Below are positions 6,516 through 54,828 of a stretch of 64,000 nucleotides of DNA, piece after piece. The notes under the pieces were generated by a model, which saw only the letters and a program-made list of their open reading frames with translations, was not told where the DNA came from and ran no database searches. The first letter of the stretch is position 1. Each line of letters opens with the position of its first letter. The stretch is from Lonicera japonica (Eukaryota > Streptophyta > Magnoliopsida > Dipsacales > Caprifoliaceae), in assembly GCA_021464415.1 (NCBI GenBank), contig CM038467.1:35557226-35621225 (forward strand), written 5' to 3'. Position numbers and translations under genes: made by a program.

Positions 6516-6578
6516 TACTATTACGATGAGGATTTAGAGATGGTGTTTTGTAGTTCCCTTCTGCCCATGTAATCAACT

Positions 6579-18841: not shown

Positions 18842-19214
18842 GGGTAGATTTGAATTATTGACGCCGCTAGAAAAGCGTGTTGCGATAGCCCAAGTGCAGG
18901 CACGTCAAGTTATTGTAAAGTCTCGGAAGTCCGAGTATCGAACCACAGGGATAACTGAAAAGGAATGGAATGGATTACGGATCAAATGGTTTTCTTGATT
19001 TTTGTGAGTTGGAGATGTTGTGAAACAACGAAAATGTAAAACGGTTTTGTAAATTAATAAGAAAGCAGTAAGGTAGGTGGAGGTTAGCTACGATACGACA
19101 GACGGTTGTAGACACCCCGATCCGTGACCCCCGCAAGAACCCTAACGACCTACGAGACTACTATTTTTGGAGTCCAGGACACACCCGAGCACCCGAAACT
19201 ACCCCGGGGGGGTT

Positions 19215-19494
19215 TGTTGCGCGACAAACCTATTTTTATGAAGGATTGTCGCACGACATATCACATTGTCGCGCGACAATCATTGGAATGTCGTGCGACA
19301 ATCCCACTATGTCGCGTGACAATCCCACTATGTCGCGTGACAATCCCTCTCTGCACCCGACCAACCACTTTTTGACACATCACAGTGTCAGGACCCATCA
19401 CTTCAGCCGTTTGTCGCACGACATACAGGAATGTCGCGCGACAAACAGATATGTCGCGCGACACTTGCCCTTTTTGGGAAAATGTCGCGCGACA
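19215..19494. promoter_or_regulatory. Cluster of ten TGTCGCGCGACA palindromes, 5' LTR
   Basis: Copies start at 19215, 19247, 19267, 19289, 19310, 19331, 19412, 19432, 19452 and 19483. Four are the perfect 12-bp palindrome; the others differ by one base, mostly C to T or G to A in a CpG. The last copy ends 15 bp before the TATA box. The layout suggests multiple sites for a dimeric DNA-binding protein; the protein is unknown. Confidence 0.8.
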
Positions 19495-19509
19495 ATCTTC
19501 CCCGAGCAG

Positions 19510-19517
19510 TATAAATA
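19510..19517 (+). promoter_or_regulatory. TATA box of the 5' LTR
   Basis: TATAAATA followed by GGCC sits directly downstream of the palindrome cluster and about 300 bp into the LTR. This is where a U3/R promoter is expected. The same sequence is at 36006-36013 in the 3' LTR. Confidence 0.8.
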
Positions 19518-20686
19518 GGCCAACACCTCAGAGGGAGAGAAGAGCGACTTGAATCTGGAAAATCTGGAGCTTTAGTCTGATTTTATCAAGCATTTTATAT
19601 TATCATCTTATCTCTGAAGAATTATCGAATCTGTTCCCGACACTCGACGTGTCCCGTCTCTGGAATCGAATTCTCGGAAATATCTGAAGAAGGAGAAGAT
19701 TGTTATCGCCGGAGATCTCTCTGCCGTATTATATTCTCTTTCTTATTATTATTATTCTCGTCGGGAAGGTAAATAAAGTTTCTTCTGGTAATTAAACAGG
19801 TCTATCTGTGTACTTGTTTTATTTCTGTTGTTTTATCCACGTTCTATTTGAATAAACTTATTGCCAAGTTATAAATAGTCTACCGTCTTCAAAACAAAAG
19901 ACCCTGATAAAATCGTTTGCAAAACCAGAAGAGTAAGTATGTTATCGTCCGGATAAAATTCTGTTTTCAAAACCCAGACTGATACGACTTATCTAGGAAT
20001 TAGAATCAAACATATCCTGTCTTCTCTATAGACTGCTATGTGATTGATAACTCTCCCCAAAGATTTCTAGTTCCATATTAAATCAGTCCCGACATAGATC
20101 CGAACTTTTACAAAAGTAAACACAACACGAGAAAACCGTCATTATCTGAGGAAATAATACGGGATACTCTTTCAAAATAAAAGGTTTCGTCATTTGTATT
20201 TACATCTTTCAATAAATAAAACATCGGATCTCGGAACACAAAGGTTTTCATCCCTTTCCCGTTTTCCCCCAGAAATTAGGGTTTTCATTTGAAAAGTAGT
20301 AGTCTGTCAGTAAAAGCATTAAAGTTTTTCAACATAGAATAAACATATAAGACCACTAGAGACCGAAAGGGCGGAATGGGTGCTTAACACCTTCCCAAAC
20401 TGTAATATAGTTTCCGAACCCTATAGAATCCTGGTTTCGCAGACAAAACGTGTAAAGAAAGGCTTATCTTTAGCCTTTCCCCTTACACAACCCTTTTTGT
20501 CCGTTTTCTCGTAAAACGTACTGGCGACTCTGAACGAACCCCCTTGCATCTAGAATAGACGTAAGGACACCCGATATGAATCATCAAACAACTCCAAGTA
20601 AATGGAGCGACGGAATCCCTTTCGACGCTTCAGACGCCCAACGAACGGGGACGAGACCCGGGGATCGCATTTGCGGATTCTCACAG

Positions 20687-20705
20687 TGGCGACTCTGCTG
20701 GGGAC
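20687..20705 (+). other. Primer-binding site (tRNA-Arg type)
   Basis: TGGCGACTCTGCTGGGGAC starts two bases after the LTR. It resembles the complement of a plant tRNA-Arg 3' end plus CCA (TGGCGACTCC..CTGGGGA) with two or three mismatches. A primer site of this kind is usual for Tat/Ogre elements. It would prime minus-strand DNA synthesis. Confidence 0.75.
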
Positions 20706-21435
20706 ACTAGAAAACTAGACTCTTATATGTGGACTTTTGTTTATCTGTTGAATACTTGCTTTTTCTGCTTTCCCTACTTATGTTAATTGATTGAGAAAAA
20801 ACATTTTTTTTGAAAAAGGGAATTTTTCAAAAATACGTAATCAAGATAATGATATTTGTAAACCCAACCTTTTTCGCATGCACTATCACAAATCATGCAT
20901 TGGTTCTACGAGTGTGAATTTACCCCAAACCCTCGGAAGTATTATAAGTGAGTAGGGAGTTGGCTTGCTTGGGCCAACATAAACCGAAAGCATTTACTTC
21001 CACTCTCCTTGGCCAAGTACGCCCCCGAGGTATATCGAGTGACGAGAACACTCACGTACCCGGGAAGTATATCAAAAGGCTCTTGCACGTACCCGCCCCT
21101 GGGGTATATCGCAAGGTCTTGCTAAATAGGAGGGAGCCTGAAGCCTTAACCGTTCGTACACCTGCGCTGCATATAAGATCGAGTCAAGTTAAAACACTTG
21201 TCAAACAGCCGTAGGGGATGTACCACTTTACGGCTTACTTTTCGACACCCTTTTTAAAATCCGAGGCTCTTCTCAGCAATTTTTAGTGGTTCTTTTGGCA
21301 AAAATCAAGTCGCATCACAGTCTTCCTTCATCTTCGCCACGTGGTTTCGTCTACAGTCGTGAAGCAACAAACAGACTGGAAGGTTGGGTCGGCCGTGATC
21401 ACACCGGAAGACTAGTAAGACCAAGCACACCTGAA
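20706..21435 (+). other. Untranslated leader of the Tat/Ogre element
   Basis: This is the stretch between the primer site and the likely gag start. A 88-residue frame at 20948-21214 has no recognisable domain and contains repeated 'gtaccc..gggtatatc' words. The frame upstream of 21436 also stays open back to 21286, so gag could start there, but the stretch resembles leader sequence. Confidence 0.5.
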
Positions 21436-23358
21436 ATGGCCGATGAACGCGAGAATCGAGAGACAGATCAGAGCCTAGCCGAGGCATCATTAGCTCAGCC
21501 AACCCTAGCCGAAATGCACCGTTTACTCATGACCGTCAGCAGGGATCTGGCAAACCTCATGAACGAGCAACAGGGTACCCGAATCCGAATAAAAGAATTG
21601 TCCGCCGAACGAACTGCACCACCAGGGTTTGATCGACTACCACCGAATCAAGATCCGAACCAAGGACGGTCTTCACAAGTACTCCCCCCAGTTCAAGGAA
21701 CCAATCCACCCCAAACGGGCCCTATCGTAGCTGGTCCCGTTCAAACCGACCCCAACAATCAGAACTAATGGGCCCCGGATTCAGGCCCCACTTACCAACA
21801 GCAAGAGCCACCCATAGTCTGGCCGCAACCCCAAGTACAACTCGGTTTTGACCCCCAATACCAACCATGGCCACAAGTTCCCGCAAGACCCATTCCACCA
21901 CCGGCCCCAGCAGCCCTCCCTAATGAATACCCAAACATCAACCGACTTCGGGCAGTATATGCAGAATCGGTAATATCACGGGAACAACCCGACGAGGTGT
22001 CAAGAGAGAGTGAGGAAATGAAGAAGCTGAAAGAGCAGATGAGGGTCCTACAGAAGGGGGTGTCCCTAATAAAAGGAGCAGACGAGATCACGGATATGAA
22101 TGCCTTCTCTCTCTACCCAGAAGCAAGATTACCCCAGGGATTCAAACTCCCTTCCATCACCAAGTTCACTGGAACCACGCCCCCTAAAACCCACCTACAG
22201 TCCTACATCAGATCCATGCAAATGTCCGGTTGTGGAGAGCCGGAATTAGCACAAGCCTTTCACATGACTCTCACGGGAGCCGCCCTGAGATGGTTCTTTG
22301 GTCTAGAAAGGCATCACACGCAGACTTGGGGAGATATCGTCAAAGAATTTATGACCAAATACGGGTCCAACGAGGATTTGGAAATTACCCGTAAACACCT
22401 GAAAATGGCCAAACAGGGCGAGAAAGAAAGCTTCAGCGACTTTGTCACCCGCTGGAGGGAGATGGCCTCCCAAATGTCCAAACGACCCGATGAAGAAGAA
22501 CAGCTGGAAATCATTCAGAAGAACTTCACTCCAGCCGTACTGAGTTGCATGGGAAAGCATGTATTCCCACACTTCAGGGCCCTGTTGAGTATGGGGTCAC
22601 AAGTAGAGGAAGAATTGGCCAAGAAAGTTGAAACCGATACCAAGAAAGCCGTATACACCGGGAGAAAGACAGCCACTACAGCCGTGAATCAAATAAGCTC
22701 ATACCCCTATCAACAGAACCCCTTTCAACAACCACAACAGCCACCTCCGATGAGTTGGCCCGCACAAGGAGGCCCTTCGAACACCAAGGACAAGAAAAGG
22801 AGAAACTTCTGCACCCTCCCCACTACACTGGTAAAAAGTCTGGAGCTGCTCCGAAAGGCCAGACTAATCACTCCACTCAACCCTCGCCCCCCACCAAACC
22901 CTATTCCAAATACCTGGAGAATGAATGAGAATTGTGCGTATCATCAAGCTGCAGGACATGACACGGAGCGTTGTTTGGCCCTTCGTCATCGTATTCAAGA
23001 CCTAATTGAAGCCGGAACCATCCCCGCATCCGGCGGGCCCAATGTTACTAACAATCCACTTCCTAACCATGCTCCACCTGCAGGGATTAATGCCTTAACC
23101 ACTGGTGAAGAAGGCTTCGATCCCGTGGGGCTCATTCGAGATGACCCAGCCTACAGGGCACCCGATGTACTGCCAGCAAAGGCTCAAGTTGCCCCAGGCC
23201 TCAATCCCATAATTGACCAATGGATGGCCAAAATGAACTTCCTACCCGGGCAGGGTTTAGGAAAGGCAAATCAGGGGATCTCACAGCCACTTACAATCAA
23301 AACCAATCCCAGAAAATCTGGGATAGGATGGACCCAGAATAAGAAGAAACAATCATGA
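21436..23358 (+). pseudogene. gag: gag of the Tat/Ogre element, one internal stop
   Basis: One frame encodes the capsid-type polyprotein but is cut by a TAA at 21766-21768; the frame is open on both sides, so a single C-to-T change of CAA is likely. The first part (MADERENRETDQ) is charged and followed by Pro/Gln-rich sequence. From about 22090 comes the retrotransposon gag core (LKLPSITKFTGTTPP-like start, ALRWFFGLE, TWGDIVKEFMTKYG). Near 22920 a Cys/His element (CAYHQAAGHDTERC) is the nucleic-acid-binding knuckle. The C-terminus (about 23225-23340) reads FLPGQGLGK..GIGW, a G-patch-like motif. Gag would assemble the particle that packages element RNA. It ends in ATGA, overlapping the pol start by four bases. 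An upstream start at 21286 is possible. Confidence 0.85.
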
Positions 23359-26300
23359 AAATCCCAAAACCCCCCAGGGAGACAATCTGTATGACAGAAA
23401 CCTCCCCCGGGACTTTCAGTTGGTCGACAGAGCCGGAATCGTCAGAAACTTCAGAGGAATCAAACCCGGCATCCCTTTGGATCCAACAGATCACCCGTTC
23501 AGGAAGGGTATACCAACCACCACCGACGGAGGCCGAGAAAACACCGCCACCGAAGGAAATGGGAGAAGATAGAGTGCTTGAGCAGTTGAAGAAGACCCAG
23601 GCACACATCACCATTTGGGGCCTCTTGGTTGCCTCCAAACCCCACAGGACCGCTTTCATCAAACTTCTAGACGAAGCCGTGATATCGCCGGACTCCACAC
23701 CCGAACAACTGCCAAATATGATCGGGTCACTTACAGTCCAAAGAAGTCTGTCATTTTCAGATGAGGATCTGTCTCCATTGGCGAGGAAACACAGCCTGGC
23801 TCTCCATATCACCGTCCGAACCCGAGGGAAGATTTTGCCACAAGTCCTTATCGACAATGGGTCAACCATAAACGTCTGCCCTTTGAAGACCGCTAGATGC
23901 CTGGGTATCTTGGATTCAGAGCTTTCTCCATCCGCCGTGACTGTCAGGGCCTACGACAATACCAGAAGGGCCGTTCTGGGTTCTCTGAAGCTAGATCTCA
24001 TGGTCGGTCCCGGAAGTTTTTCGGCCGATTTCCAAATCATAGACATTCCCTCCAGTTTCAACCTCCTGCTGGGAAGAGCGTGGCTACACGACATAGGAGC
24101 ACTCCCCTCCTCCTTGCACCAAAAGATCAAGATACCGTTTGAAGGGAACATAATTACCATCCAAGGAGATCCTGAAAGGACCTTGACAGATGTGGAGTTA
24201 CCTGTTTTGGGAATCGGGAGCCAGAGCATACAGTTAAGAGGCTTTTCTTATGAGCCTCAAGTACAAACTCTCAGCACTCAGATAATCGAATATCTTCCCC
24301 CTGACAATATCCCCGGTCTCAGCACCAAGATTACAAATATGTTGAGAATGATGAAATACTTGCCTGGAGCCGGTCTGGGAATGGGACAATCAGGACTACT
24401 TCAAGCCTTGGAACCGGTAACGAGGTACGAAAGGGAAGGTTTGGGGTACCAACACACTGAAGAAGACGATCAGCAAAAAAGGGGCCGAGGGCATCAGTAT
24501 CCGAGTTTCAGCTCTTTGAACGGGTTTTTTGTCAAAGAAGGAGAGGACTTCCCCTTTTGCGGTTTTCAGGAACCTTGGAGAAACAGAGACGGAGAGAACC
24601 TGCCGGGATGGGAAATCTTCTATGAAGAGGACCTATATGTCAAAGAAAGCATCGAACACAGTTTCTCCACCAAATTAACAATCGGGTTGAAAGAAGGAAA
24701 TGAAGACAAGACAGATGAGGAGGAAGAAATGATCGGAGATCTTTTCGACATCATGGTTCTAGGGGATGACGAGCCAAGGGATGACCCCGTACACCTGATA
24801 TACGCTGATCCAAACTACCAAAGAGAAAGGGAAAAGAGTGAAATTGTAAGGGTGAGAGGTGAGAGTGAAAGTAAGGCTAGGAAAGAGCCACTCCTAGATT
24901 TACTCTTTAAACTTGTACCTGTAAACACTATTATCAATGAAGAAAACTCTATTTTGCGTTATCTTGTTATTTGTAATTCTGTAATAGCTTATAAGGAGTT
25001 AGAAAGACTGAACGAACACCCAGAACGGGAGGAACAGCGTATACAGAGTGCGGAAGGAGACACTCTCGAAATTAACCTCGGAACAGAAGAGGAAAGAAAG
25101 GAGGTCCGCATTGGGACAAGTCTGAGTGAAACAGAAAAAGAGGAATTCACACAAACTCTGAAAGAGTACGTGGATGTCTTCGCCTGGTCTTATGCGGATA
25201 TGCCAGGATTGAACAGTCAGATAGTCATGCACGAGATACATACCAAGCCGGAGTTCAGACCTGTCAAGCAAAAGTTAAGAAAACTTACGCCAGAATGGTC
25301 CCTAAAGGTAAAGGAAGAAGTGATGAAACAACTGAGTGTAGGGTTTTTACAGGTGATCGATTACCCTTCATGGTTAGCCAACATTGTGCCCGTTCCAAAG
25401 GCAAATGGGAAGGTCCACATGTGTGTGGATTACCGGGATCTTAACAAAGCTTGTCCGAAGGACGATTTCCCATTGCCCAACATCGATTTGATAATAGATA
25501 ACACTGCCAACCATGCCCTGAAGTCATTTGTAGATGGTTTTGCCGGGTATAACCAGATTAAAATGCACCCGGATCACCAGGAGAAAACGGCATTCATCAC
25601 ACCATGGGGAACATACTGCTACACCGTTATGCCATTTGGGCTGAAGAACGCCGGGGTAACCTATCAGAGAGCAGCCACCGCTATTTTCCACGATATGATC
25701 CACAAAGAAGTAGAGGTGTATGTGGACGACATGATAATCAAATCAAAGGAGAGGGAAGGTCACATACCAGCCCTGCGAACTTTCTTCGACCGGCTCTGCC
25801 AGTATCAGATGAGACTCAATCCGCAGAAATGTGTGTTCGGGGTGACCAAAGGAAAACTCCTAGGTTATGTTGTCAATAAGAGAGGAATCGAGGTAGACCC
25901 CGCCAAGGTTCAAGCTATCCAAGAAATGCCTAAACCTCGTACTGAGAAAGAAGTCCGGGGATTTTTGGGTAATCTGCAGTACATCAGTAGGTTCATCTCT
26001 CAGCTCACTCAGACTTGCGAGCCCATCTTCAAACTCCTGAGGAAATCTTCACCGGGAGAGTGGGACGGTCAGTGCCAGGAAGCTTTTAATAGAATCAAAG
26101 AATATCTCTCCAAACCCCCAGTATTAGCCCCACCACAAACCGGACTACCTTTAATTTTATACCTAACTGTCACTGATTCAGCCGCGGGAGCAATGCTAGC
26201 CCAACACCTGACTAATACCCGGAAAGAGCAGGCCATCTATTTCCTCAGCAAGAAGCTGTCCCCATTTGAGATGAACTACACACCATTAGAGAAATCATGC

Positions 26301-28329
26301 ACCGCTCTCATCTGGGTAACACAAAAACTACGGCACTACATGCTGGTTTTCTCAGTCATCCTAGCATCACGGACTGACCCGTTGAAATACCTCTTCGAGA
26401 AACCGGCTCTCTCGAACCGAATGGCAAAATGGCTATTTCTACTCTCCGAATTCGACATCACCTACATGACCCAGAAGGCAGTTAAAGGCAAGATCATAGC
26501 TGATTACCTGGCCCACAATCCAATATTGGGAGATGTGCTAGAAGAAGCCGAGTTCCCAGACGAAACCATCATGAATGTTGAGATCGATGAATACTGGAAA
26601 TTGTACTTTGACGGGGCCGCCAATCGGAATGGAAACGGGATAGGTATCCTGTTAGTCTCTCCAGACCAAACTCACTCCCCGGTATCATATCGTCTGGACT
26701 TCTTCTGCACCAACAACATGGCTGAATATGAAGCCTGCATACTCGGGTTAGAGATCGCACTTCAAAGGGGTATAAAGAGGATACAGGTATACGGAGATTC
26801 AGCACTAGTGGTCCACCAGGTTCTAAAAGAATGGAAGATCAGAGATGAGAAATTAGTCCCTTACCTCGCCCGAATGGAGGATATCGCGGGAAAGTTCAAG
26901 CATACGGAATTTTACTATCTCCATAGGTCTCAGAACAGTTTTGCCGACGCACTGGCAACCCTGGCATCTATGATCGATATCCCGGAGGGGATGGAAGAAA
27001 TAACCCTTACGGTACAAAAGAAGTCAGAACCAGCACACTGCACGGCCTTGGTGGTAGAGAATGAAGGGGAAGGGGATCCAACCACTTGGTTTTACGATAT
27101 CTGGAACCTGCTGAAGAACCATCAGTATCCTGAGAAAACAGACAAGAAAACACGGGTCACGCTCAGAAGATTAGCATCAGGGTTCATACTTTGTGCCGGA
27201 AGATTGTATAAAAGGAACTACGACGGAACTCATCTTCAATGCCTCACCGAAGAAGAATCAGTCAGAGTAATGGATCAGATACATGGGGGTGATTGCGGAC
27301 CTCATATGAGCGGACATAAACTTGCCCGCAAGATCATCAGACAAGGTTATTTCTGGTCTACTCTGCAAACCGATGCACTAATCACGTACGCCGTTGTCAC
27401 AAGTGCCAAATTTATGCTAAGTCCCAGAAGCTTCCTCCAAAAGAGTTATACACCATGACTGCTCCCTGGCCTTTCGTAACCTGGGGAATCGACGTCATTG
27501 GGAAGATCTCGCCCAAAGCCAGCAACGGCCATGAATTCATACTAGTGGCCATCGACTACTTCACCAAATGGGTAGAAGCCGAGTCTTACCAGACCCTGGA
27601 TGCCAGAAAAGTAGCCCGATTCATCAAAAGGAATATTGTTTGCCGATATGGGGTCCCACACGAGATCATCTCAGATAACGGCACCCACTTCGAAGGAGAA
27701 GCTAATACCATCATGGAAGAATACGGTATTACCAGACACAGGTCTTCGCCATACAGGCCACAAACCAATGGGGCAGTTGAAGCCGCCAACAAAAATCTGA
27801 AGAATATCCTAAGCAAATGACCGACACCTGTCGAGACTGGCCAGAGAAGTTACCTTATGCATTATGGGGATATCGCACCACCGAGAGGGTCTCCACCGGG
27901 GCAACCCCGTTCTCTCTTACATACAGGATGGAAGCAGTCCTCCCTGTTGAGTTAGAAGTCCCCTCCCTCAGGGTAATACTAAAAAATCAAGTCAATGAAC
28001 TAGAATGGGTCCAGGCACGTTATAACGAGCTAGCCCTACTAGATGAAAAGAGATTGAAAGCCGCATACCACCATCAGGGGTATCAGAAGAGAATCGCTCG
28101 AGCATTTAACCAGAAAGTGAGGACTCGGGGTATCAATGAGAACGATATTGTATTGAAAGAAATTCGAGAACCGGCCAGAGATCCGAGGGGTAAGTTCGGG
28201 CAGAAGTGGACAGGGCCGTACATCGTCAAAGAAATCGATACAGGAGGTGCCGCTATACTCACTGATTTGGATGGGCAGTTACTACATTCACCAGTCAACA
28301 TGGATCGACTGAAGAAGTATTATCAATAG
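23355..28329 (+). pseudogene. pol: pol: protease, RT, RNase H, archaeal-type RNase H, integrase
   Basis: The frame opens at the ATG overlapping the gag stop. In order: aspartic protease with DNGST at residue 167; a G-patch-like motif (YLPGAGLGMG) near 24360; reverse transcriptase with YVDD at residue 789; native RNase H; a second RNase H starting near residue 1081 (LYFDGAANRNGNG), as in Tat elements; then integrase. A one-base loss near 27388-27392 shifts the frame before the integrase zinc finger Cys pair, which continues in the frame of 27455-27820 (GIDVIG, SDNGTHF and the NGAVEAANK catalytic acids). A second one-base loss near 27813-27817 shifts again into 27817-28329, the integrase C-terminus. 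Pol would process, copy and insert the element; here integrase is split into three frames, so it is probably inactive. Confidence 0.9.
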
Positions 28330-28554
28330 GTGTGGCATATAACAAGAACTACGTAAACCTGAGCCCCAACTCAAAACTTTTTGTTCTTTGTAAAAATCAA
28401 AAAAAGGGGAACGTAGGCAACCTGAGAAGTGACTTCGGGCCCGGTTTAAACTTTCTAAATAAATTTATTTCCCACAAGCAGTCCCTCATATATTATTAAA
28501 AGGTGGTTCAGAACACCGAAGGTTACAAAGGAGACATAACAAATACGAAAGAAA
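28330..28554. other. Gap between pol and the antisense gene
   Basis: The two genes converge here. The sequence has an A-rich and a T-rich stretch that could hold cleavage and poly(A) signals for both strands. No gene is seen. Confidence 0.4.
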
Positions 28555-29812
28555 CTAATCCCTAGGGGTTGGCCACACTGGGTCCTCAATAGCCAAGTCG
28601 ATCCGAGCTTCGTCCAAGATCTGATATGCAAAGACAATATTATCATCAGTAGCCTCCGTATCCATGAACCGGAACCACTCCATTTGAAAGGGGTCGTCGA
28701 TCAGTTCTCCTTCCAAAGATTGCCAGCAAGAGCGGATGATATCAGCCCGGAGGGGCCGGGTAATACCAAAACGGGCATAGTTGAACTGACGAGTCAGTCG
28801 AGCACGCCACATCCTCTCTACCGATAAAGAAACATATGGGGTCAAAAAATTTAGACTCAGGAGAGAAGTTGTTCAGACCAAGGGGAACCTCCTGAGGAAT
28901 GTTAAACTGCCGAAGAAGACGCCCAGGGAGATAAAAGGAAGTAAACCAGAGCCCACGGAGCCGAACATAGTTCTGACCCCCAGTACTAAGTACCATCTCC
29001 CTCAGCTTCCACCAAGGAATGTTCCACCGGATAGCCCGAAAGTTCTCCGAAAACCACACCGTCCAATCAGAGGAAGACATGGTCAAAGCACCAAAGAGAG
29101 GCCGATGGAAGAAATGAGTCGGATTGTCGAGCTGAACTCCGTTGAAACCCACCGATCGAAAGCGCTCTAGCAGCCACATGTATAGCAGACGCGGACTCCC
29201 CCGGAAGAAGGGCGAAGCCCCCCGTTGAACATCATCAAGACCATTCAGGGTCTCTGCAAGAATGATCGGCACCATAGACTCCCCATTTCTAGCCTGGTAA
29301 ATCAGACTCAGAATAGTCGGATCAACACGGGAAGAACCCGTCACCAGCAGCATATCAGAAACCAGGCAAATCAGGGCCGCTGCAGTACGCCCCACGCCAT
29401 AAGAGGCCCTATCTTCATAACGATGAAAGAACCTCACCATTTTATGAAGGTCAAGAAGACCGTCGGCAATGAAACCATCACAGGCCGCCTGGGGAATGGC
29501 TAACAGAGCAATTAGCATGTCACGGGGACCGATTTCTTCTATGGGAACTGCCATCGGGAGACGAACGTCAGAACGTAACAGTCAGGAGAACTCCTCATAG
29601 GTCGGGCAGAGCTCATCTAGTCCAAAGCGGAAGAGATGGTCCGCAGGACTCCAGAAATACAAGGCACCTAATAGAAAGGAAAAATCGACGAGACGATAGT
29701 ACCAGCCCGCTAAAAGACTAAAGGCACCAAAGTTCAGACCATTTTCGGAAGATATCAAAGCATCTCTAGCATTGACATAAGAAAAATCAGATTTTGTGCG
29801 ATAAGAAGACAT
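28555..29812 (-). pseudogene. Antisense gene A: PMD/DUF7745-like protein
   Basis: One minus-strand frame runs from ATG 29812 with an in-frame TGA at 29584-29582, continues open to about 28850, then needs a one-base shift in a T run (about 28846-28852) to finish at 28555. Total is about 418 codons. The start has 'WSPADHLFRFGLDELCPTYEEF', cut here for length to the key residues W, FRFG, ELCPTYEEF, followed by AALICLVSDMLL and PIILAETLNGL. This is the layout of plant DUF7745/plant-mobile-domain-type proteins, found in many plant transposons and linked in host genes (MAIN, MAIL1) to silencing. I infer kinship only from motifs. The gene is intronless, opposite to gag-pol, and has its own promoter at 29851. 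The lesions suggest it no longer works. Confidence 0.6.
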
Positions 29813-29850
29813 TTTTGAAAGGTGTGGGGATGAAGGAAGGAAGATGGGTG

Positions 29851-29929
29851 TATTTATAGCAAAAAAAGAGGGACCTGTACCTGTTTGTCGTGCGACAAAC
29901 CCATATCCAGGGTGGATTGTCGCGCGACA
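29851..29929 (-). promoter_or_regulatory. Promoter of antisense gene A: TATA plus two palindromes
   Basis: On the minus strand CTATAAATAC (TATA core 29851-29858) lies about 40 bp before the ATG. Two palindromes, TGTCGTGCGACA (29886-29897) and TGTCGCGCGACA (29918-29929), lie just upstream of it. This copies the arrangement in the LTR. Confidence 0.7.
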
Positions 29930-30254
29930 AACCCCTTTGGGGTCACCCTAATTTGGTTTTTTCTTACACATAGCAGTCATTTTTACCAAAAGAATCATTT
30001 TTTATATGCTTTCTTGTTCTCACTTTGCTCTTTTTTTACAGGAAAAGTATCACTACACTACAAGGTATGGCTTCTAAATCACTGACTCTTATATATATAT
30101 ATATCTTTCACACACAGAGAATAAAAGTATAATCAAACACAGATAAAGATATTTTATAAATCCTATAAAAGAACAGTTTTTAAATATCTGTCTAAACATG
30201 TCTAAAATAAATACATATCTGTCCAAAACTAACACTAAATGCAGAAAGGGAAAA
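29930..30254. other. Spacer between antisense genes A and B
   Basis: AT-rich, with an AT tract near 30091-30104. It would be the 3' flank of gene B. No gene is seen. Confidence 0.4.
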
Positions 30255-33200
30255 CTAATCTACTCGGGCGCGTTTTGACACGCTCCCACTATCGCCTGAG
30301 CCCTCCTCGGGAGTAAGATCAACAACTGGGACGCCAGGAACAGGAGGAACTGCCGCCTGAGAAGGCCCCGTGGACTGGACCGGTGCCGTAGGACAAATCA
30401 CCGACGATCGGGAACGCCTGGAAATCCGACTACTGCTCCTCCGAGAATCCGTCCGGGCATGAGAGGAAGTCAGGGGGTCGTCCGGCCGTAAGGAGATGTC
30501 GATAGCCCTCTGATAATCACGCATGTAGGCTGGAGGGTCTCAACCGACATACTGGAGCAGGTTCCAGCTGTAGAGGTACTGGGCGTGCCAAGCCCGTAGA
30601 TCTGCCACCCGAACACTCACCCGCTGTAAAAAGACACAAGATAAAAGAATCAGCGCAGTCAAAATAGATAGATATAGATGTAAAGGTACCAAGAGAAGTT
30701 GAAGAAAGTACCTCGTCATCAGGGCGACCACCCAGATAGTCAAAAGTATCCTCAGGAAGAGGGTACTCCGGGACGGGATATCGACGTAATCCAGCGCCAA
30801 CGTAAGAGATGTCCCTGGGAAGTGGAGGTAGATCTACCCACGGAAAAGACGACCCCGCCGGAACACCAGCAGAAGTGGACCCGCCCTCCTCACGGATCGG
30901 GAACAAGGGAGGCCGGGATGAATAACCCTCGAAACCTGGAGATCGGGCAGGAGGACCCATGACAGTCGCCGGAAGAGGAGTCAACGTGGCGTAGGTACGG
31001 ACCCCCGGAGGATCCACTATGGCCGTCGCCCTCAAAGGAGGTACCCCACTAGAAGGAGTAGCCACCGCAGCTGGACGAGTCCGCCCGAACTGCCGTAGTC
31101 TGCCCCAAGGTCCGCAGGCTCCCAGGACCTCTCAGACAATCCCGCTCTCCCCTCAGCAGCCTCAGCAGCAGCAAAAAGGACCCCCGGAGACACAGAAGGG
31201 CCGGTGGGAAACTCGAAACTCGAAACCCTCAGTACGCTGCTCCCTCACAGGTGTCGCCTGAGGCGACGGCTCCGGAACCGCTGTCGCGTCACCTCCCTCG
31301 CCCTCTGGCCGACCACCGCCCTCGACCGCAGCAGGAACATCCCTCTCTCCCTCAGGATTCTCGTCCTCAGAATCCGAAATGTTGTCCCTCTGATCGGGGA
31401 CAGGTGGCAAGTGACCCAGAACCGCCCTAGCTAAATGGGTCTGTCCCCGTATGTAGTTGGGATCACCTCCCAATGCCCGGTACCTCTCATAGAAGACCCG
31501 TCCCCGAGTCCCCTTCGGCTCCCTCATCAGATAACGGGCAGTAAAAACGGGGTAGTATCCCTCCTCGATGAACGTCTGGAAGCCGAGTCCGTCGACCAAG
31601 GCCTGCACCGTCACCGGATCGATCTCGCCCGTCCGCCTCATCAGAACAGAAGGGAATAATGGAATACGAGGCCACTGGGACGGCGTGTGCTGGCGAATGA
31701 CCCTCTCGCCCAAATAGAAGAGAAGGCCATACTCATCCCGGATAAGCCGCCTAGTCCTCGAGGCGATCAGGGCGCGGCCATACCCATAATGGGGACTTAG
31801 ATCACCCCAAGGGGCCCACTCAACCTGAAAAGAAAACAAGTTTTTTATTCTCAATAATTTATATATTCTATCTAACTATCAAAGAGCAAGAGAACTAAAA
31901 TATTTACCTGCTCCTCCAACAGGTCGTGAACGGCAGCAGCTCCGGTCTCCCGAGTCCGGTATACATAGGGAGCTCGGTAGTTCCCCGCAATGAATCGGCA
32001 GAGAAAAGGGAACTGGTCCTCGTTCTCAACGAGGAGATCCACCTGGGCACGACCCAGGCGGGTATAAGCAACAAACCAACTCTGAAAAGGAAAGATAAAA
32101 GAAATCAGCAATGATCAACAGGTAATATGTAAAGAACTAAAGCAAAAAAGGACTAAAGTATGTACCTCCCACAGCAGAGAAAAGCCCTTGAGGTTCAGGG
32201 CTAAATGGCGAGAGACCTGGTCCATGGCATCATAGAGAACTGCAAGAATGAAGCCTCCCCAGTCATAGTCAAACATGAGGCTGAAGTCCCGAAGATAGGG
32301 CAACCACTAAAGATGAGCCGTATCCCCACCACGAGCCTCGAATAAATCATGGAGTGTCAACAGAAGAAGGACGCGGGCATACTGGCGCGCCTCCTGACGG
32401 GTCATAGGAACCCCTGAAGCAACTAGCCGAGCTCTCTCTGTGGCTAGCCGCGTAACCAAGACACCCCGAGGAATCGTATCACCGGAACTCCGTCGGTCCG
32501 AGAACCATCCAAGCGCACTAACAATACCCTCTGCCGTCAGACGCAAAGGGACATCGATCTGAATGGGGACCCCCCCTGAAGGAATCCCGGTCAGAGCAAA
32601 AAGATCAAGGGTTGTCATCGTCATCTCACCCAAGCTCCAATGGAAGGTATGAGTAGTATCCCACCAATGGCAAGCCAATGCCGACACCAAAACTGCCGCC
32701 CTAGAAACCCGCTCTGGGAGGGCGTCGAAGAGAGAGCCAAAAGGAGTCGCAAGAATCAACTCCTGGACAGGGGCCGGTGCCCGTTGCCACTCCGAAGATA
32801 TAGTGTTGGGAGAACCCCAACCCCGGCCAACCCACTGCAGACAAGAGAACGAGTATGGGGTTATAGGGGTAAATTATGTAATTTCCCAAACCTGAGGGTA
32901 CTTTGGTGTAATTATGAGAGATATGGGGTTATAGGGGTAAATTATGTAATTTTCCAAACCTAAGGGTACTTTGGTGTAATTATGAGAGATATGGGGTTAT
33001 AGGGATAAATTATGTAATTTTCCAAACCTGAGGGTACTTTGGTGTAATTATGAGAGATATGGGGTTATAGGGGTAAATTATGTAATTTTCCAAAACCTGA
33101 GGGTACTTTGGTGTAATTATGAGAGTTATAGGGCTATAAAGGGTAAAATATGTAATTTTCCAAACCTGAGGGTACTTTGGTGTAATTATGAGAGATATGG

Positions 33201-33954
33201 GTAAATTATGTAATTTTCCAAACCTGAGGGTACTTTGGTGTAATTATGAGAGATATGGGGTTATAGGGGCAAATTATGTAATTTTCCAAACCTGAGGGTA
33301 CCTTGGTGTAATTATGAGAGATATGAGGTTATAGGGGCAAATTATTTAATTTTCCAAACCTGAGGGTACTTTGGTGTAATTATGAGAGATATGGGGTTAT
33401 AGGAGTAAATTATGTAATTTTCCAAACCTGAGGGTACTTTGGTGTAATTATGAGAGTTATGTGGGTTATAGGGGTAAATTATGTAATTTTCCAAACCTGA
33501 GGGTACTTTGGTGTAATTATGAGAGTTATAGGGTTATAGGGGTATATTATTTTTTTTTCCTAAAAGCTAAAGAGGTATCACAGGTAAAAGTATGTGTTCG
33601 CTAAATCGGGCGTTATTCCTAGGCAGACATGCACACTAACATTATTGAAAATGAAATACAGGAAACAACAAGAAACAGAACAGATAAATACATAAAAAGA
33701 AGACATACCAGAGATCGACGGCGAATCTCGTGAGAGACAGGCTCCATCAAGAGCCACGGGACATCCGGGATTGGAGCAGCTCGGATAGCATCTCGATAGA
33801 CCACCGCCCGACCGCGGCCTATCCCATCCTCATCGTACCAATCCAAGTCCTCCCAGTCGTCATGATGAGGGCTGCAGCGGAGAACGCCCTGAGCATCAGT
33901 GAAGGTGACCTCCTCCTGGTCACCCTCCAGTCTGTCAGGATGAGTAGAGTCCAT
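30255..33954 (-). pseudogene. Antisense gene B: plant mobile domain (PMD) gene, five exons
   Basis: Exons on the minus strand are 33954-33709, 32834-32166, 32081-31908, 31824-30712 and 30623-30255. All four introns have GT..AG borders and keep the frame (for example CTG|GTATGT and TGCAG|TGG). Exon 2 holds the PMD signature: HWWDTTHTFHWSLGEMT followed by LDLFALTGIP. In host PMD proteins this core is followed by several hundred residues as here. The C-terminus is Ser/Arg-rich with VDLTPEEG. Lesions are a TAG at 32309-32307, a TGA at 30542-30540 and a probable frameshift at about 31060-31170. An upstream ATG at 33999 is possible. PMD is known from host silencing factors (MAIN/MAIL1) and from transposons; a role in counter-silencing is only my inference. 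Confidence 0.75.
32840..33550. repeat. 68-bp minisatellite, about ten copies, in intron 1 of gene B
   Basis: The unit 'gggtaaattatgtaattttc' continues with 'caaacctgagggtactttgg', 'tgtaattatgagagatatgg' and 'ggttatag'. About ten tandem copies run between the acceptor at 32835 and the donor at 33708 of the first intron. Copies differ by few bases, and some lack the 'ggggttata' part. All lie in the same orientation. Confidence 0.9.
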
Positions 33955-34090
33955 CGGTATAGGTAAAATATGTGAAGAGGCCGGAAAAGCCGGAAACACG
34001 GCAGAGCTTCCGCGCTAGAAAGAAGAGAGAAAGAGAGCTAGAGAGAGAAAGAGAAGGGAGAGAATGAGGTGGAATGAGCTCAGCAGGAGG

Positions 34091-34174
34091 CTTATATAGT
34101 GGGTCAGTTTGTCGCGCGACAAATGGCCACATTGTCGCGCGACAAAAAGCTCCCCACCGAAGTGTCGCGCGACA
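34091..34174 (-). promoter_or_regulatory. Promoter of antisense gene B: TATA plus three palindromes
   Basis: On the minus strand ACTATATAAG (core 34091-34098) lies about 140 bp before the ATG at 33954. Three perfect TGTCGCGCGACA copies are at 34110-34121, 34133-34144 and 34163-34174. The nearest is 11 bp from the TATA box, again as in the LTR. Confidence 0.72.
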
Positions 34175-35130
34175 ATCTCCCATCTCCCCTGATTTTTTTT
34201 TGACCTCTTTCTCATTTTTATCTCCTGCAGGAGGACTTCCGAGGAGCAGTTTTCGAAAAAATTGCTAAAACCGCACACCCATGATAAAGATTTCAAAGAG
34301 AAAACTTCCAAATCATCTCTCCGAAAAATGCGAGAACAGAATGCCGCGATTAAAAGTAGTCTCTGATCTCACAGAAGGACCGAGACCATCAAATAAGAAA
34401 AAGCAGAATAGCGAGATAAGATGGGAATAGAAAAAATTGAAAGAGTAGAAAAGAGGAGAAACCCACATGAGCGCCCAAAGCAAGCGAGAGAAATAGACAT
34501 GTAGAGTGACAGGGAGAGCCACACCAAAAGTGATAGCTAGGCCAAAAAACGGCTCAGGGCTTCGTTTTAGGGTGAGTAAGGCTCCTGATCACGACAAAGG
34601 GATGAAAAGACTCCTGGTCAAAAACAGAGAGGGCCAGGAAAAGTCTTTCCCAAAAGAGGGAGAAATAAGGGCATCGAAAAACAGAAAACGATGTTGGGCC
34701 CACCAAAAAGAGAAACTGAGAAAAGAACAGAGATCAGAGATTGGACTTTTAGACAAATTTTCTTTTCAGCACGATACAGAAGAGATGGTTTGGAAAATCC
34801 TCGAATCATCACGCTGCGGAAAGCAAAAAAAAATCGAAGACTGCCTTCTGAGAAAAGTACCCTCACTCGAGGAAAACATGAGAACAAAATTCAAGAAAGA
34901 TACAGGAAAGCGGACATTCGGATAAGATTTGACCTCGAGGAGCTCTTTTCACCCTCACGAAAGCTTCTCTCTCTCACACTCTAGCAGTCTAAAGAGAAAC
35001 AAATTAAAATTCTACAAAATCACAAACACAAGCCCTTTTTAGAGGCAAAATCACAAGCCCTCTCCAGAGGCAAGAGTTACTCATGAAAGTCCTCCCAGAG
35101 GCATTTTTCCTTCTTCTTTCAGGTCTAGAA
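34175..35130. other. Non-coding 3' part of the element
   Basis: Open frames on both strands here (longest 139 codons at 34506-34925) are rich in Lys/Arg/Glu from GA-rich DNA and match no family I know. I treat the stretch as non-coding, upstream of the 3' tandem repeats. Confidence 0.45.
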
Positions 35131-35420
35131 GCCCTCCCAGAGAGGCACAACGGTAGTCCTCCCACCTGAGGCGAAGCCCTCCCAGAGAGGCACAGCGGTA
35201 GTCCTCCCACCTGAGGCGAAGCCCTCCCAGAGAGGCACAGCGGTAGTCCTCCCACCTGAGGCGAAGCCCTCCCAGAGAGGCACAAACGGTAGTCCTCCCA
35301 CTTGAGGCGAAGCCCTCCCAAAGAGGCACAACGGTAGTCCTCACATCTGAGGCGCAATGGTAGTCCTCCCATCTGAGACGCAAAGGAGATCAATGGTAGT
35401 CCTCCCATCTGAGGCAAGTG
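35131..35420. repeat. 45-bp tandem repeats near the 3' LTR
   Basis: Units at 35131-35175, 35176-35220, 35221-35265, 35266-35311 and 35312 to about 35355 share 'gccctcccagagaggcacag' plus 'cggtagtcctcccacctgag'. Partial units follow to about 35418. Long frames on the minus strand are translations of this repeat. Repeats at this place are typical of Tat/Ogre elements. Confidence 0.9.
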
Positions 35421-35454
35421 GAACAAGTCAAAGCCCTCGAGAGAGTCAATGAGG

Positions 35455-35515
35455 TAACAAAAGCCCTCTCCGGAGGCAAAACCAAACACGAAGCCCTCTC
35501 CGGAGGCACTCACAA
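35455..35515. repeat. 'aagccctctccggaggca' repeats
   Basis: Two close copies, with similar words also at 35038-35100. They probably share an origin with the adjacent 45-bp array. Confidence 0.6.
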
Positions 35516-35623
35516 GCACTTTTTGCATAAACACTTCTTTAGAGTTCATGCGGGAGCCATAGATCATGGTCTCTTCCAGTCGCCTCAATTCCTTGCAAGC
35601 AAGGAGCTTGAGTCGAGAGGGTC

Positions 35624-37181
35624 TGTAGACACCCCGATCCGTGACCCCCGCAAGAACCCTAACGACCTACGAGACTACTATTTTTGGAGTCCAGGACACA
35701 CCCGAGCACCCGAAACTACCCCGGGGGGGTTTGTTGCGCGACAAACCTATTTTTATGAAGGATTGTCGCACGACATATCACATTGTCGCGCGACAATCAT
35801 TGGAATGTCGCGCGACAATCCCACTATGTCGCGCGACAATCCCTCTCTGCACCCGACCAACCACTTTCTGACACATCACAGTGTCAGGACCCATCACTTC
35901 AGCCATTTGTCGCACGACATACAGGAATGTCGCGCGACAAACAGATATGTCGCGTGACACTTGCCCTTTTTGCGGAAATATCGCGCGACAATCTTTCCCG
36001 AGCAGTATAAATAGGCCAACACCTCAGAGGGAGAGAAGAACGACTTGAATCTGGAAAATCTGGAGCTTTAGTCTGATTTTATCAAGCATTTTATATTATC
36101 ATCTTATCTCTGAAGAATTATCGAATCTGTTCCCGACACTCGACGTGTCCCGTCTCTGGAATCGAATTCTCGGAAATATCTGAAGAAGGAGAAGATTGTT
36201 ATCGCCGGAGATCTCTCTGCCGTATTATATTCTCTTTCTTATTATTATTATTCTCGTCGGGAAGGTAAATAAAGTTTCTTCTGGTAATTAAACAGGTCTA
36301 TCTGTGTACTTGTTTTATTTCTGTTGTTTTATCCACGTTCTATTTGAATAAACTTATTGCCAAGTTATAAATAGTATACCATCTTCAAAACAAAAGACCC
36401 TGATAAAATCGTTTGCAAAACCAGAAGAGTAAGTATGTTATCGTCCGGATAAAATTCTGTTTTCAAAACCCAGACTGATACGACTTATCTAGGAATTAGA
36501 ATCAAACATATCCTGTCTTCTCTATAGACTGCTATGTGATTGATAACTCTCCCCAAAGATTTCTAGTTCCATATTAAATCAGTCCCGACATAGATCCGAA
36601 CTTTTACAAAAGTAAACACAACACGAGAAAACCGTCATTATCTGAGGAAATAATACGGGATACTCTTTCAAAATAAAAGGTTTTGTCATTTGTATTTACA
36701 TCTTTCAATAAATAAAACATCGGATCTCGGAACACAAAGGTTTTCATCCCTTTCCCGTTTTCCCCCAGAAATTAGGGTTTTCATTTGAAAAGTAGTAGTC
36801 TGTCAGTAAAAGCATCAAAGTTTTTCAACATAGAATAAACATATAAGACCACTAGAGACCGAAAGGGCGGAATGGGTGCTTAACACCTTCCCAAACTGTA
36901 ATATAGTTTCCGAACCCTATAGAATCCTGGTTTCGCAGACAAAACGTGTAAAGAAAGGCTTATCTTTAGCCTTTCCCCTTACACAACCCTTTTTGTCCGT
37001 TTTCTCGTAAAACGTACTGGCGACTTTGAACGAACCCCCTTGCATCTAGAATAGACGTAAGGACACCCGATATGAATCATCAAACAACTCCAAGCAAATG
37101 GAGAGACGGAATCCCTTTCGACGCTTCAGACGCCCAACGAACGGGGACGAGACCCGGGGGTCGCATTTGCGGATTCTCACA
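35624..37181 (+). repeat. 3' LTR of the Tat/Ogre element (1,558 bp)
   Basis: It has the same ends as the 5' LTR, nine palindrome copies from 35732 to 35990 and a TATA box at 36006-36013. It is followed by the ACGGT target duplication. Compared with the 5' LTR it lacks one 21-bp palindrome unit. No clean polypurine tract precedes it ('ggagcttgagtcgagagg'). Confidence 0.95.
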
Positions 37182-42411: not shown

Positions 42412-42508
42412 GGCCATGATCGATCATGGCCAACCTATGATTGTGGAGTGTTCTGCCTGAAGATAATTTGTACCATGATCGATCATGGAATTCCATGATC
42501 GATCATGC
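42412..42508. repeat. Three palindromes CCATGATCGATCATGG
   Basis: A 20-bp perfect palindrome GGCCATGATCGATCATGGCC lies at 42412-42431. Two further copies at 42473-42488 and 42493-42507 are joined by 'aatt'. They sit in the old minus-strand LTR. Confidence 0.8.
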
Positions 42509-45268: not shown

Positions 45269-47330
45269 TTTTTATGGGTTATTCATCCTCTCAGAAAGGG
45301 TATAGGTGTTATCATCCTCACACTCGAAAATTATACATGACAATGGATGTTGTCTTTCATGAAGAAGATATGTATTTTCATCAGGCTAAACTTTAAGGAG
45401 ATAATCAGAGAAAATTTCAAGCTTTTGATTTTGTTAGTGGGGATGAGGATACGATAATTCAACTCGAGGTATCCCCATAGTCGACTTCACAACTACCAAA
45501 TCCAGCAAGTTCACCGCTAAATTCACCAAGTTCACTACTGAATTCACCATAGTCTTCAAGTTTGCCATCGCCTAATACAAATAACCAATTGTCTCCTTCA
45601 GACACATCTGAATATCAAGTTCCTCCAACTGATACTCAGGTATTTTCTCATGAACCTCCCAAAAAACAACTCCTTAATCAAATCAATCGAAGTGTGCCTA
45701 AACAAACATATGAACCTGATCTTGCTAGTAAGGCCAAATATCCCATGAGAAACTACATGTCTTACAATAAGTTGTCAGAATCGAATAAGTCATTTATAAA
45801 TTAATTATCTTCTGTATCTATTCCTAACAATGTGCAGGAAGCCTTAGGTAATCCAAAATGAAAAGCAGCAATGGACGAGGAAATAAAATCCTTAAAGAAT
45901 AATGGCACATGGGACATAGTTGAATTGCCAATAGGAAAAAAGCGTGTTGGTTGCAAATGGGTGTACACAGTGAAACATAAGATAGACGAGACCATCAAAA
46001 GATTCAAAGCAAGACTTGTAGCGAAAGGTTACACCCAAACACATAAGGTCAATTATTTAGAAACATTTGCACTAGTGGCAAAAATTAACACTGTTCGTGT
46101 TTTGCTCTTTTTAGCGGCAAATTTGGATTGGCCATTGCAACAATTTGATGTGAAGAATGCATTCCTGCATGGGGATTTAGAAGAGGATGTATACATAGAG
46201 TTCCCACCATGTTATAATGTTCCTGTAGAGCACAGAAACAAGGTATGCAAATTAATAAAGTCTTTGTATGGTTTAAAACAGTCTCCGAGAGCTTGGTTTG
46301 GGAGATTTACCAGATCAATGAGGAAGTTCGGTTACAAACAGAGCAATTCTGATTATACATTATTCTTAAAAAGGTGCCATGGGAAAATCACAGCACTAAT
46401 TGTCTATGTTGATGACATGGTTATCACCGGGATGACCTACATGAACAAGAAACACTAAAGAAATATCTATCTCGAGAGTTCGAGATGAACAATCTTGGCG
46501 AGCTAAAGTATTTTTTAGGGACTTAGGTGTCCAGATCTTCAAAATGGCATATTTCTCTCCCATAGAAAGTATGCATTGGATCTACTAAGTGAAACTGAAA
46601 TGTCTGCCTATCAACCGTCAAATACTCCCATGGAAGAATGATTGAAATTGGAAATTGAAGCTGATCAAGTGCCTGTTAATAAAGGGCATAATCAGAGATT
46701 AATAGGGAGGTTAATGTACTTAGCACATACCAGGCCCGATATTTCTTATGCATTGAGTACAGTTAGTCAATTCATGCATAGTCCTAGAGAGAAGCATATG
46801 CAGGCTGTGATGAAGATTCTTAATTATCTGAAGGCAACTCCTGGAAAAGGGATTTTGTTTACAAAGAACAGTGATTTCTTGAAAGTTGAAGGGTACACTG
46901 ATGCTGATTGGGCCAAAAATGTTGGTGACAGACGGTCTACATCAGGATATTTCACATTCGTTGGTGAGAATCTCGTCACCTGGCGAAGCAAGAAATAAAA
47001 TGTCTTCTCTCGTTCAAGCGCTGAAGCGGAATATCAAGGAATAGCAGTGGGTGTTCAAGAATTATTATGGTTGAAGTTGCTATTGACTAATATAGGTTAT
47101 CCACCGAACGAACCTATGGTATTATATTGTGACACTAAGGAAGCATGCAATATTGGTCACAATCTAGTTCAACATGATAGAACAAAGCATGTGAAAGTTG
47201 ATAGGTTCTTCATTAAAGAAAAATTGTAGGAGAACATAATTACAGTGCCCAATAAACGCTCGGAAGAACAGCTGGCCGATGTACTCACTAAAGCTGTTTT
47301 CAACAAGATATCTATGCACCAATTTGAGGG
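45269..47330 (+). pseudogene. pol: copia pol remnant: integrase end, RT, RNase H
   Basis: From 45269 the end of integrase reads GYSSSQKGYRCYHP with several stops. After a Pro/Ser-rich linker, RT occupies 45871-46458 (WVYTVKHKIDE, FDVKNAFLHGDLEEDVY, SLYGLKQSPRAW, and YVDD in VYVDDMVITG). A frameshift near 46445 and stops follow. RNase H is in pieces at 46642-46998 (RLMYLAHTRPDISYA, GYTDADWA) and 47047-47229, with a TAA replacing the Gln of the usual KKQN motif. It is a dead Ty1/copia polyprotein whose gag and protease are absent. Confidence 0.88.
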
Positions 47331-54400: not shown

Positions 54401-54828
54401 ACTTGATTGCGGACCTAGAAAGGTACAAGCATATGTATGACAGCGTGTGGGGAGATTGGTTTTACAATGATAATCGATATATACTAGAATTTTTTGAACC
54501 CATATGCAAAGATGACAAGCACTGGATGGTGATGCCCGATATGGGTTTCCTTACTGCGTCGGCTTATAATTGTGTCGTCGTGATGTTTTCAGCAATATAA
54601 AGTCTGACCTTTTTTCCGCACGATGAGGGCCCGCGGGAGGGAAGCGACATTCGTGTCCTAGCAATAGCACTCGTACATGGAAATCATTTTGTTAAAGTTC
54701 AGTTGAAGGATGATTCACCGATCCCACCTGTTGCGAGCATGTGGAATAGGCTTCGAACAGAAGAGGCGGCCGCTTGGGAAGAAACTTTTGCTAATAGACT
54801 AATATTGTATAAAGAAATGGGTAATTAG
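51487..54828 (+). pseudogene. MULE/FAR1-type transposase with a C-terminal OTU domain
   Basis: Three exons are visible: 51487-51588, 51848-52195 and 52290-54828, all with GT..AG introns that keep the frame. The third exon has a FAR1-like zinc cluster (CNCPF, CGVHNHEL), then the MULE DDE core: first Asp in IIDCTYKTNKYKM, second in VFVTDKESACI with the CSFH pair, and Glu in NRVEGSHGK. A SWIM-type end (CDHVLRTVYGLPCAH) and a basic linker follow. From about 54295 an OTU cysteine-protease domain begins (VKGDGHCGFRAIS) and its late His lies in HGNHFVKVQL. An extra A in the run 52457-52464 shifts the frame and a TAA at 54598-54600 cuts the OTU domain; reading continues to 54828. It is a relic of a protein combining DNA transposition and deubiquitinase-type folds. 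No terminal inverted repeats were found. Confidence 0.8.

Follow-up and report, generated by a model that had tools for sequence, protein, structure and literature searches.

In our study, a window of 64,000 bases of Lonicera japonica DNA (contig CM038467.1; all positions given here are window coordinates) was found to contain one Ty3/gypsy long terminal repeat (LTR) retrotransposon, with Ogre-type features, in which the same 12-bp palindrome, TGTCGCGCGACA, lies in clusters, each just upstream of a TATA box, in the LTR and ahead of two antisense genes, here called A and B. The palindrome is probably a promoter site for a dimeric factor, common to the LTR and the two antisense promoters, and this is the most likely reading of those that we weighed. 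The clusters, found by motif scan, and the TATA boxes, found by sequence scan, are as follows.

19215..19494, plus strand: palindrome array, ten copies, in the U3 of the 5' LTR
19510..19517, plus strand: TATA box of the 5' LTR (TATAAATA)
29851..29858, minus strand: gene A TATA box (TATAAATA as read on that strand)
29886..29929, unstranded: cluster of two palindrome copies, upstream of gene A
34092..34098, minus strand: gene B TATA box (TATATAA as read on that strand)
34110..34174, unstranded: cluster of three palindrome copies, all perfect, upstream of gene B
35732..35990, plus strand: palindrome array, nine copies, in the U3 of the 3' LTR
36006..36013, plus strand: TATA box of the 3' LTR

When up to two mismatches were allowed, TGTCGCGCGACA was matched 24 times in the window, against 0.39 matches expected (100 dinucleotide shuffles, maximum 2), and all 24 were inside the one element, with none elsewhere in the window. 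An earlier note on this DNA had counted ten copies in the 5' LTR, nine in the 3' LTR, two at gene A and three at gene B, and our rescan gave the same 24. It had also seen no copies outside the element, which is true at this threshold; at exactly three mismatches four further sites were found, one outside the element (8940) and three inside it, apart from the clusters (26882, 31282, and 34500). Twelve of the copies were perfect and twelve contained one mismatch. The variants had been described as mostly CpG transitions, and 11 of the 12 were C-to-T or G-to-A changes at a CpG, the exception being TATCGCGCGACA at 35979. Perfect 12-bp palindromes numbered 57 in the window, including the 12 of TGTCGCGCGACA; the other repeated ones were TATATATATATA (9), ATATATATATAT (8), ATGATCGATCAT (3), and TTAAAATTTTAA (2).

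Each TATA box was found on the strand of its own gene. The nearest palindrome copy was separated from it by 15 bases in both LTRs, by 27 bases at A (TATA 29852-29858), and by 11 bases at B, in agreement with the 11-28 bp to a strand-matched TATA box that had been given before. For a point chosen at random in the element, a TATAWAW would lie no more than 30 bp away on the correct side with a chance of 0.014 for the plus strand and 0.016 for the minus strand. The joint chance for three independent clusters was about 4e-6 at these element rates, and about 5e-5 at the AT-richer whole-window rates (0.039 and 0.037). The association of the palindrome with promoters is well beyond chance. A helical alignment of the arrays to the core promoter was also considered and was dropped, because the distances from copy centre to TATA box, 21.5 bp in the LTR, 33.5 bp at A, and 17.5 bp at B, are not all whole turns.

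Conservation was measured on 15 copies, those of the 5' LTR, A, and B; the 3' LTR array, with its nine copies, was omitted as a duplicate of the 5' array. A or T occupied 58 of the 60 positions that directly adjoin the 12-mers (two per side), whereas the other 124 spacer bases of the 5' LTR were 47% A/T. The next flank position contained G in 8 of 15 copies on the left and C in 11 of 15 on the right, and therefore the site reads GWWTGTCGCGCGACAWWC, about 18 bp wide. Pairwise identity was 93% for the 12-mers and 37% for the 8 bases on either side of them (from 14 copies, a tandem twin being excluded), so the common unit is the site and not a longer block. The start-to-start spacings of the copies were 32, 20, 22, 21, 21, 81, 20, 20, and 31 in the LTR, 32 at A, and 23 and 30 at B. 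For these 12 spacings the mean cosine at 10.5 bp was 0.745 (p about 4e-5 to 5e-5 against random spacings of 14-42 bp), and with one spacing per tandem array (9 spacings) p was 7e-4. The spacing of the copies near whole helical turns is suggestive, and part of this regularity is due to tandem duplication. Across the three promoter stretches, 38 of the 43 CpGs were found within motif copies (U3 array, 24 of 28; A, all 5; B, 9 of 10). The wider site GWWTGTCGCGCGACAWWC, the near-whole-turn spacings, and the concentration of CpGs in the motif copies are new in this analysis. The 81-bp gap of both LTR arrays also contained an inverted repeat, TGACACATCACAGTGTCA (19373-19390 and 35869-35886), whose half-sites GACA and TGTC face outward.

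In the mechanism that we propose, the palindrome would be a double-stranded DNA binding site and an upstream promoter element of about 18 bp. A factor of two-fold symmetry would occupy the site, with several copies stacked on about one helix face, and by its symmetry the site would serve sense and antisense promoters equally. The factor would raise, or keep open, sense and antisense transcription jointly, and the three CpGs of each site may make its binding sensitive to methylation. The earlier note had proposed a dimeric factor that controls sense and antisense transcription together; a dyad-symmetric site repeated at the TATA promoters of the LTR and of both antisense genes, and a pattern that suits cooperative dimer binding agree with the proposal, and from these we infer binding, activation, and co-regulation by the palindrome. 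The palindrome was also compared by eye with the sites of known transcription factors, and none of these candidates was kept. It breaks the CAMTA site (VCGCGB) at one flank in each direction, it is one base off the cores of E2F and of DREB-type factors, and its ARF-type half-sites (TGTC) are abutted and not spaced.

The two antisense genes were delimited as follows.

28742..29812, minus strand: antisense gene A, with ATG at 29812 and an in-frame stop (TGA) at 29584-29582
31165..33954, minus strand: antisense gene B, with ATG at 33954, GT-AG introns (placed by eye), and an in-frame stop (TAG) at 32309-32307

In gene B, exon 2 contained a plant mobile domain (PMD) match just over the Pfam cut-off (E 3.6e-9, 36.7 bits; cut-off 34.9). 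Its intron donors were placed at 33708, 32165, and 31907, and its exons resume at 32834, 32081, and 31824; the 3' limit is provisional, 31165 being the end of the open frame of exon 4. Such minus-strand introns would be expected for a gene that is transcribed antisense to the genomic RNA. Most of intron 1 is taken up by a 68-bp minisatellite of 10.4 units (32854-33550). In gene A, the piece below the stop gave a weak PMD match under the cut-off (E 0.0025, 17.5 bits against 34.9), and the first 75 residues gave no Pfam match at E 0.1. The PMD-type proteins that the earlier note had ascribed to the element are therefore borne out for gene B, whereas the match of gene A falls short of the cut-off. 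Neither antisense piece matched an NCBIfam profile. A PDB sequence search with the A and B proteins returned nothing convincing (best E-values 0.09 and 0.66), and an alignment-free AlphaFold model of the gene A piece, with a mean pLDDT of 37, was unusable.

The element itself, about 18 kb long and adjoined on either side by the target site duplication ACGGT, was found to contain the following parts.

19107..37181, plus strand: full-length Ty3/gypsy LTR retrotransposon with Ogre-type features (LTR ends, target site duplication, LTR alignment, Pfam domains)
19107..20685, plus strand: 5' LTR, 1579 bp (LTR alignment)
21769..28329, plus strand: gag-pol region, with a gag open reading frame (ORF), a pol ORF, and the integrase core in the subsequent, broken frame (ORFs, Pfam)
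35624..37181, plus strand: 3' LTR, 1558 bp, with one 21-bp motif unit fewer than the 5' LTR (LTR alignment)

The plus-strand Pfam domains were gag, reverse transcriptase, RNase H, a second RNase H, and the integrase core, and both gag and reverse transcriptase were of gypsy type. In the pol ORF, RT_RNaseH reached residue 1037 and was followed by RVT_3 at residues 1096-1207, with the integrase core in the next frame, so that a second RNase H lies between RNase H and integrase. The Ogre lineage has a primer binding site complementary to tRNA-Arg; in the present element, the 5' LTR is followed by GTGGCGACTCTGCTGGGGAC. A second RNase H at this place is the rule for both Ogre and Retand, and 57% of Ogre elements have PMD in an extra ORF (PMC6317226). 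The second RNase H before integrase fits Ogre or Retand and the PMD extra ORF, which is the gene B piece over the cut-off, points to Ogre; from this domain layout the element fits an Ogre-like Ty3/gypsy retrotransposon of the Tat clade. The copy is broken, since the pol frame stops ahead of the integrase core and TGA and TAG interrupt genes A and B, respectively. In a blastn search of the element against the rest of the window, no similarity was found at E 1e-3 or better.

The two LTRs differed at 18 of 1558 aligned bases (Kimura two-parameter distance 0.0117). Substitution rates of 1.3e-8 and 7e-9 are used for dating LTR divergence, and at these rates the distance would give an insertion age of 0.45 or 0.83 million years. 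Differences between the LTRs were found at 4 of 108 motif bases and at 14 of 1450 bases outside (Fisher p 0.03), with 3 of the 4 at a CpG; CpG positions overall differed more (8 of 174, p 3e-4). This CpG bias fits a methylated, silenced insertion, and it gives no indication of constraint after insertion.

Several points weigh against a shared promoter site. The evidence comes from the sequence of a single element. The phasing of the copies weakens to p 0.013 outside the tandem arrays (6 spacings) and to p 0.055 for A and B alone (3 spacings), and at A and B the arrays are out of helical phase with the TATA box. The R-U5 of the LTR is itself CpG-rich (observed/expected 1.17), and therefore the CpG depletion around the motif is local. 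The TATA-nearest copy in the 3' LTR is the variant TATCGCGCGACA, the PMD match of gene A is weak, and both antisense genes of this copy contain a stop codon. The odds of the reading rest on gene B and on the sites, and they were kept despite the weak match of gene A. The arrays also fold strongly as RNA, with z-scores of -12.3 for the 3' U3 array, -5.8 for A, and -4.7 for B, and in each case none of 200 shuffled sequences was as stable. Such folding is in keeping with an explanation in which the palindromes act as RNA, as hairpins in the genomic RNA (where U3 is at the 3' end) that would attract small RNAs and silencing, or in another RNA role, as has been suggested for the Sireviruses of maize; Sirevirus palindrome clusters are accompanied by an excess of small RNAs (PMC10760457, on Bousios 2016). 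However, any array of one palindrome would fold likewise, and pairing requires neither the identical 12 letters at three places nor the A/T flanks, nor does it need a position just upstream of the TATA box and outside the antisense mRNAs. It is the same letters, the same flanks, and the position upstream of the antisense starts that led us to favour a reading as DNA, and a role as RNA appears unlikely to us.

The clusters could also have arisen by passive spread, in which tandem duplication and gene conversion would have multiplied a palindrome that has no function. Tandem units are present within the LTR arrays, and the 21-bp unit by which the 5' LTR exceeds the 3' LTR is in line with such spread. 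Between the A spacer and the first spacer of the LTR array, 13 of 20 bases agreed (p 0.0004; p 0.046 after trimming of the three bases adjacent to each site), whereas neither of the two B spacers resembled an LTR spacer more closely than by chance (p 0.20 and 0.84). From this presence and absence of spacer similarity, cluster A may have been derived from the LTR array, and for cluster B there is no sign of such an origin. Besides the B spacers, spread without function is opposed by the low identity of the flanks beside that of the 12-mers, by the retention of CpGs in the motif with few in the spacers, and by the orientation of each cluster, which faces a TATA box on the proper strand. We consider it very improbable.

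Within the reading of the palindrome as a dimeric promoter site, a host factor is somewhat likelier as the binder than the antisense proteins of the element, and both stand. If the binder were element-encoded, the protein of gene A or B would bind the palindrome and would drive, or keep unmethylated, the LTR and its own promoters, in an autoregulatory anti-silencing loop resembling VANC or TnpA of Spm. The TnpA sites of Spm, which is a DNA transposon, are repeated 12-bp sites with a motif unrelated to the present palindrome. An element-encoded binder is a sharper form of the favoured reading, so that the two probabilities overlap, and taken by itself it is possible though rather doubtful. The motif was found at the promoters of exactly those genes and nowhere else in the window at up to two mismatches. 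VANDAL elements likewise contain short motifs in tandem arrays in their non-coding parts, and these are read by a protein of the element (PMC5735166, PMC10398659); VANC proteins bind such short repeats in the elements that encode them (PMC5735166). VANDAL is, however, a DNA transposon, with the motifs YAGTATTAY and AGTTGTCC/AC and not the present palindrome (PMC5735166, PMC10398659). TnpA, also element-encoded, activates the methylated promoter of Spm (PMC10398659), and the product of the antisense gene23 of Grande is nuclear (PMC7264820). For the host PMD proteins MAIN and MAIL1 of Arabidopsis there is a link to a promoter motif, for which genes down in their mutants are enriched, but the authors allow for an unknown transcription factor as its binder (PMC7156037). 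An element-encoded binder is further disfavoured by the PDB sequence search, which gave no convincing match that would link these proteins to a DNA-binding one, by the unusable model of gene A, and by the stop codons of both genes in this copy.

The nearest known system is that of the palindromic repeated motifs of Sireviruses (PMC2829016). In 13 of these Ty1/copia elements, 117 of 127 palindrome copies lie in the upper half of the LTR; nine of the elements have an ENV gene, and of their 79 linker copies 77 are found upstream of that gene (PMC2829016). As in Sireviruses, whose palindromes are family-specific, the present element contains many copies of a CG-containing palindrome upstream of the LTR TATA box (10 and 9 copies, 15 bp off) and further copies upstream of accessory genes (2 at A and 3 at B); in both systems the clusters are CpG-rich and the binder is not known. 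The CGG-CCG core of 12 of the 13 Sirevirus motifs (PMC2829016) is, in contrast, absent from TGTCGCGCGACA, which contains neither CGG nor CCG. The present element also differs in being gypsy, with gypsy-type gag and reverse transcriptase and with integrase after RNase H, and it has two accessory genes, both antisense and each with a TATA box of its own, whereas the accessory gene of Sireviruses is the sense ENV. The Sirevirus precedent was not named in the earlier note; it makes the idea less novel and it brings in the rival of RNA secondary structure by which small RNAs would be attracted.

Many elements of the Tat clade have antisense accessory genes, for which no function is known (PMC7264820, PMC11963269). 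Gene23 of Grande is antisense and is transcribed from its own promoter (PMC7264820), and a regulatory role has been proposed for the antisense TRP28 proteins of Retand (PMC11963269). As in Grande and the Tat clade, an antisense gene of the present element sits between pol and the 3' LTR; unlike Retand, which contains TRP28, it contains PMD (PMC11963269). The available parts of the accounts of Grande and Retand describe no motif common to the LTR and the antisense promoter (PMC7264820, PMC11963269). The PMD extra ORF and the second RNase H are shared with Ogre, for which the available part of PMC6317226 mentions no promoter motif.

Sequence collections and literature were searched for the palindrome and for relatives of the element. 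A 14-mer scan of a viral contig collection returned 65 stretches, of which 63 contained a single site and two (L046 and L059) contained two sites, 768 and 2192 bp apart, respectively. At up to two mismatches, nine of the 65 contained at least two sites within 200 bp, with a maximum of three, and none resembled the array of the element. Two perfect copies 5-35 bp apart were found in 0 stretches of the viral contigs and in 8 stretches of the genome contigs, all bacterial. Searches of the viral and prokaryote collections with the pol ORF and with its reverse transcriptase part gave 2 and 3 stretches, respectively, with no relative by tblastn, and no plant relative of the element was found in the scans of these collections. 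The same palindrome was found in tandem arrays with a period of 41-42 bp in two contigs of one Bacteroidales metagenome-assembled genome, an unrelated host (L072, 2756-2890, 4 sites; L073, 1714-2016, 8 sites; up to two mismatches). In the open-access literature, the 12-mer occurred in one paper (chicken PRMT4) and its inner 10-mer in eight, among them the same paper, and judged by title no plant transposon is treated in any of these; a combined-term search for a palindromic motif and TATA box in a plant gypsy LTR retrotransposon was unmatched.

Other features of the window were also recorded. Three copies of the palindrome ATGATCGATCAT (wider form CATGATCGATCATG) were found within 91 bp at 42416-42506 and may form the promoter array of a different element; inspection by eye showed no TATA box nearby. 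A 45-bp tandem repeat of 5 units (35128-35354) lies just ahead of the 3' LTR. A MULE transposase domain was present in a long open frame at 52363-54600, and many leucine-rich repeats in a second one at 3540-6533 on the minus strand; a Ty1/copia-type reverse transcriptase fragment (RVT_2, E 1.7e-50) was found at 45862-46458.

The palindrome is a concrete DNA bait for finding its binder. It is also conceivable, though we hold it to be unlikely, that a plant LTR retrotransposon has a trans-acting regulon of its own, in which antisense proteins would bind one CpG-rich palindrome, both in the LTR and at the promoters of their own genes, and would override methylation; such a regulon would be a self-sustaining loop in which self and host are distinguished by a private DNA code. 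If the reading of the palindrome as a shared promoter site is true, the joint palindrome would tie the antisense accessory genes to the control of the element, and the design of the Ty1/copia Sireviruses would be extended to a Ty3/gypsy element and to antisense genes.

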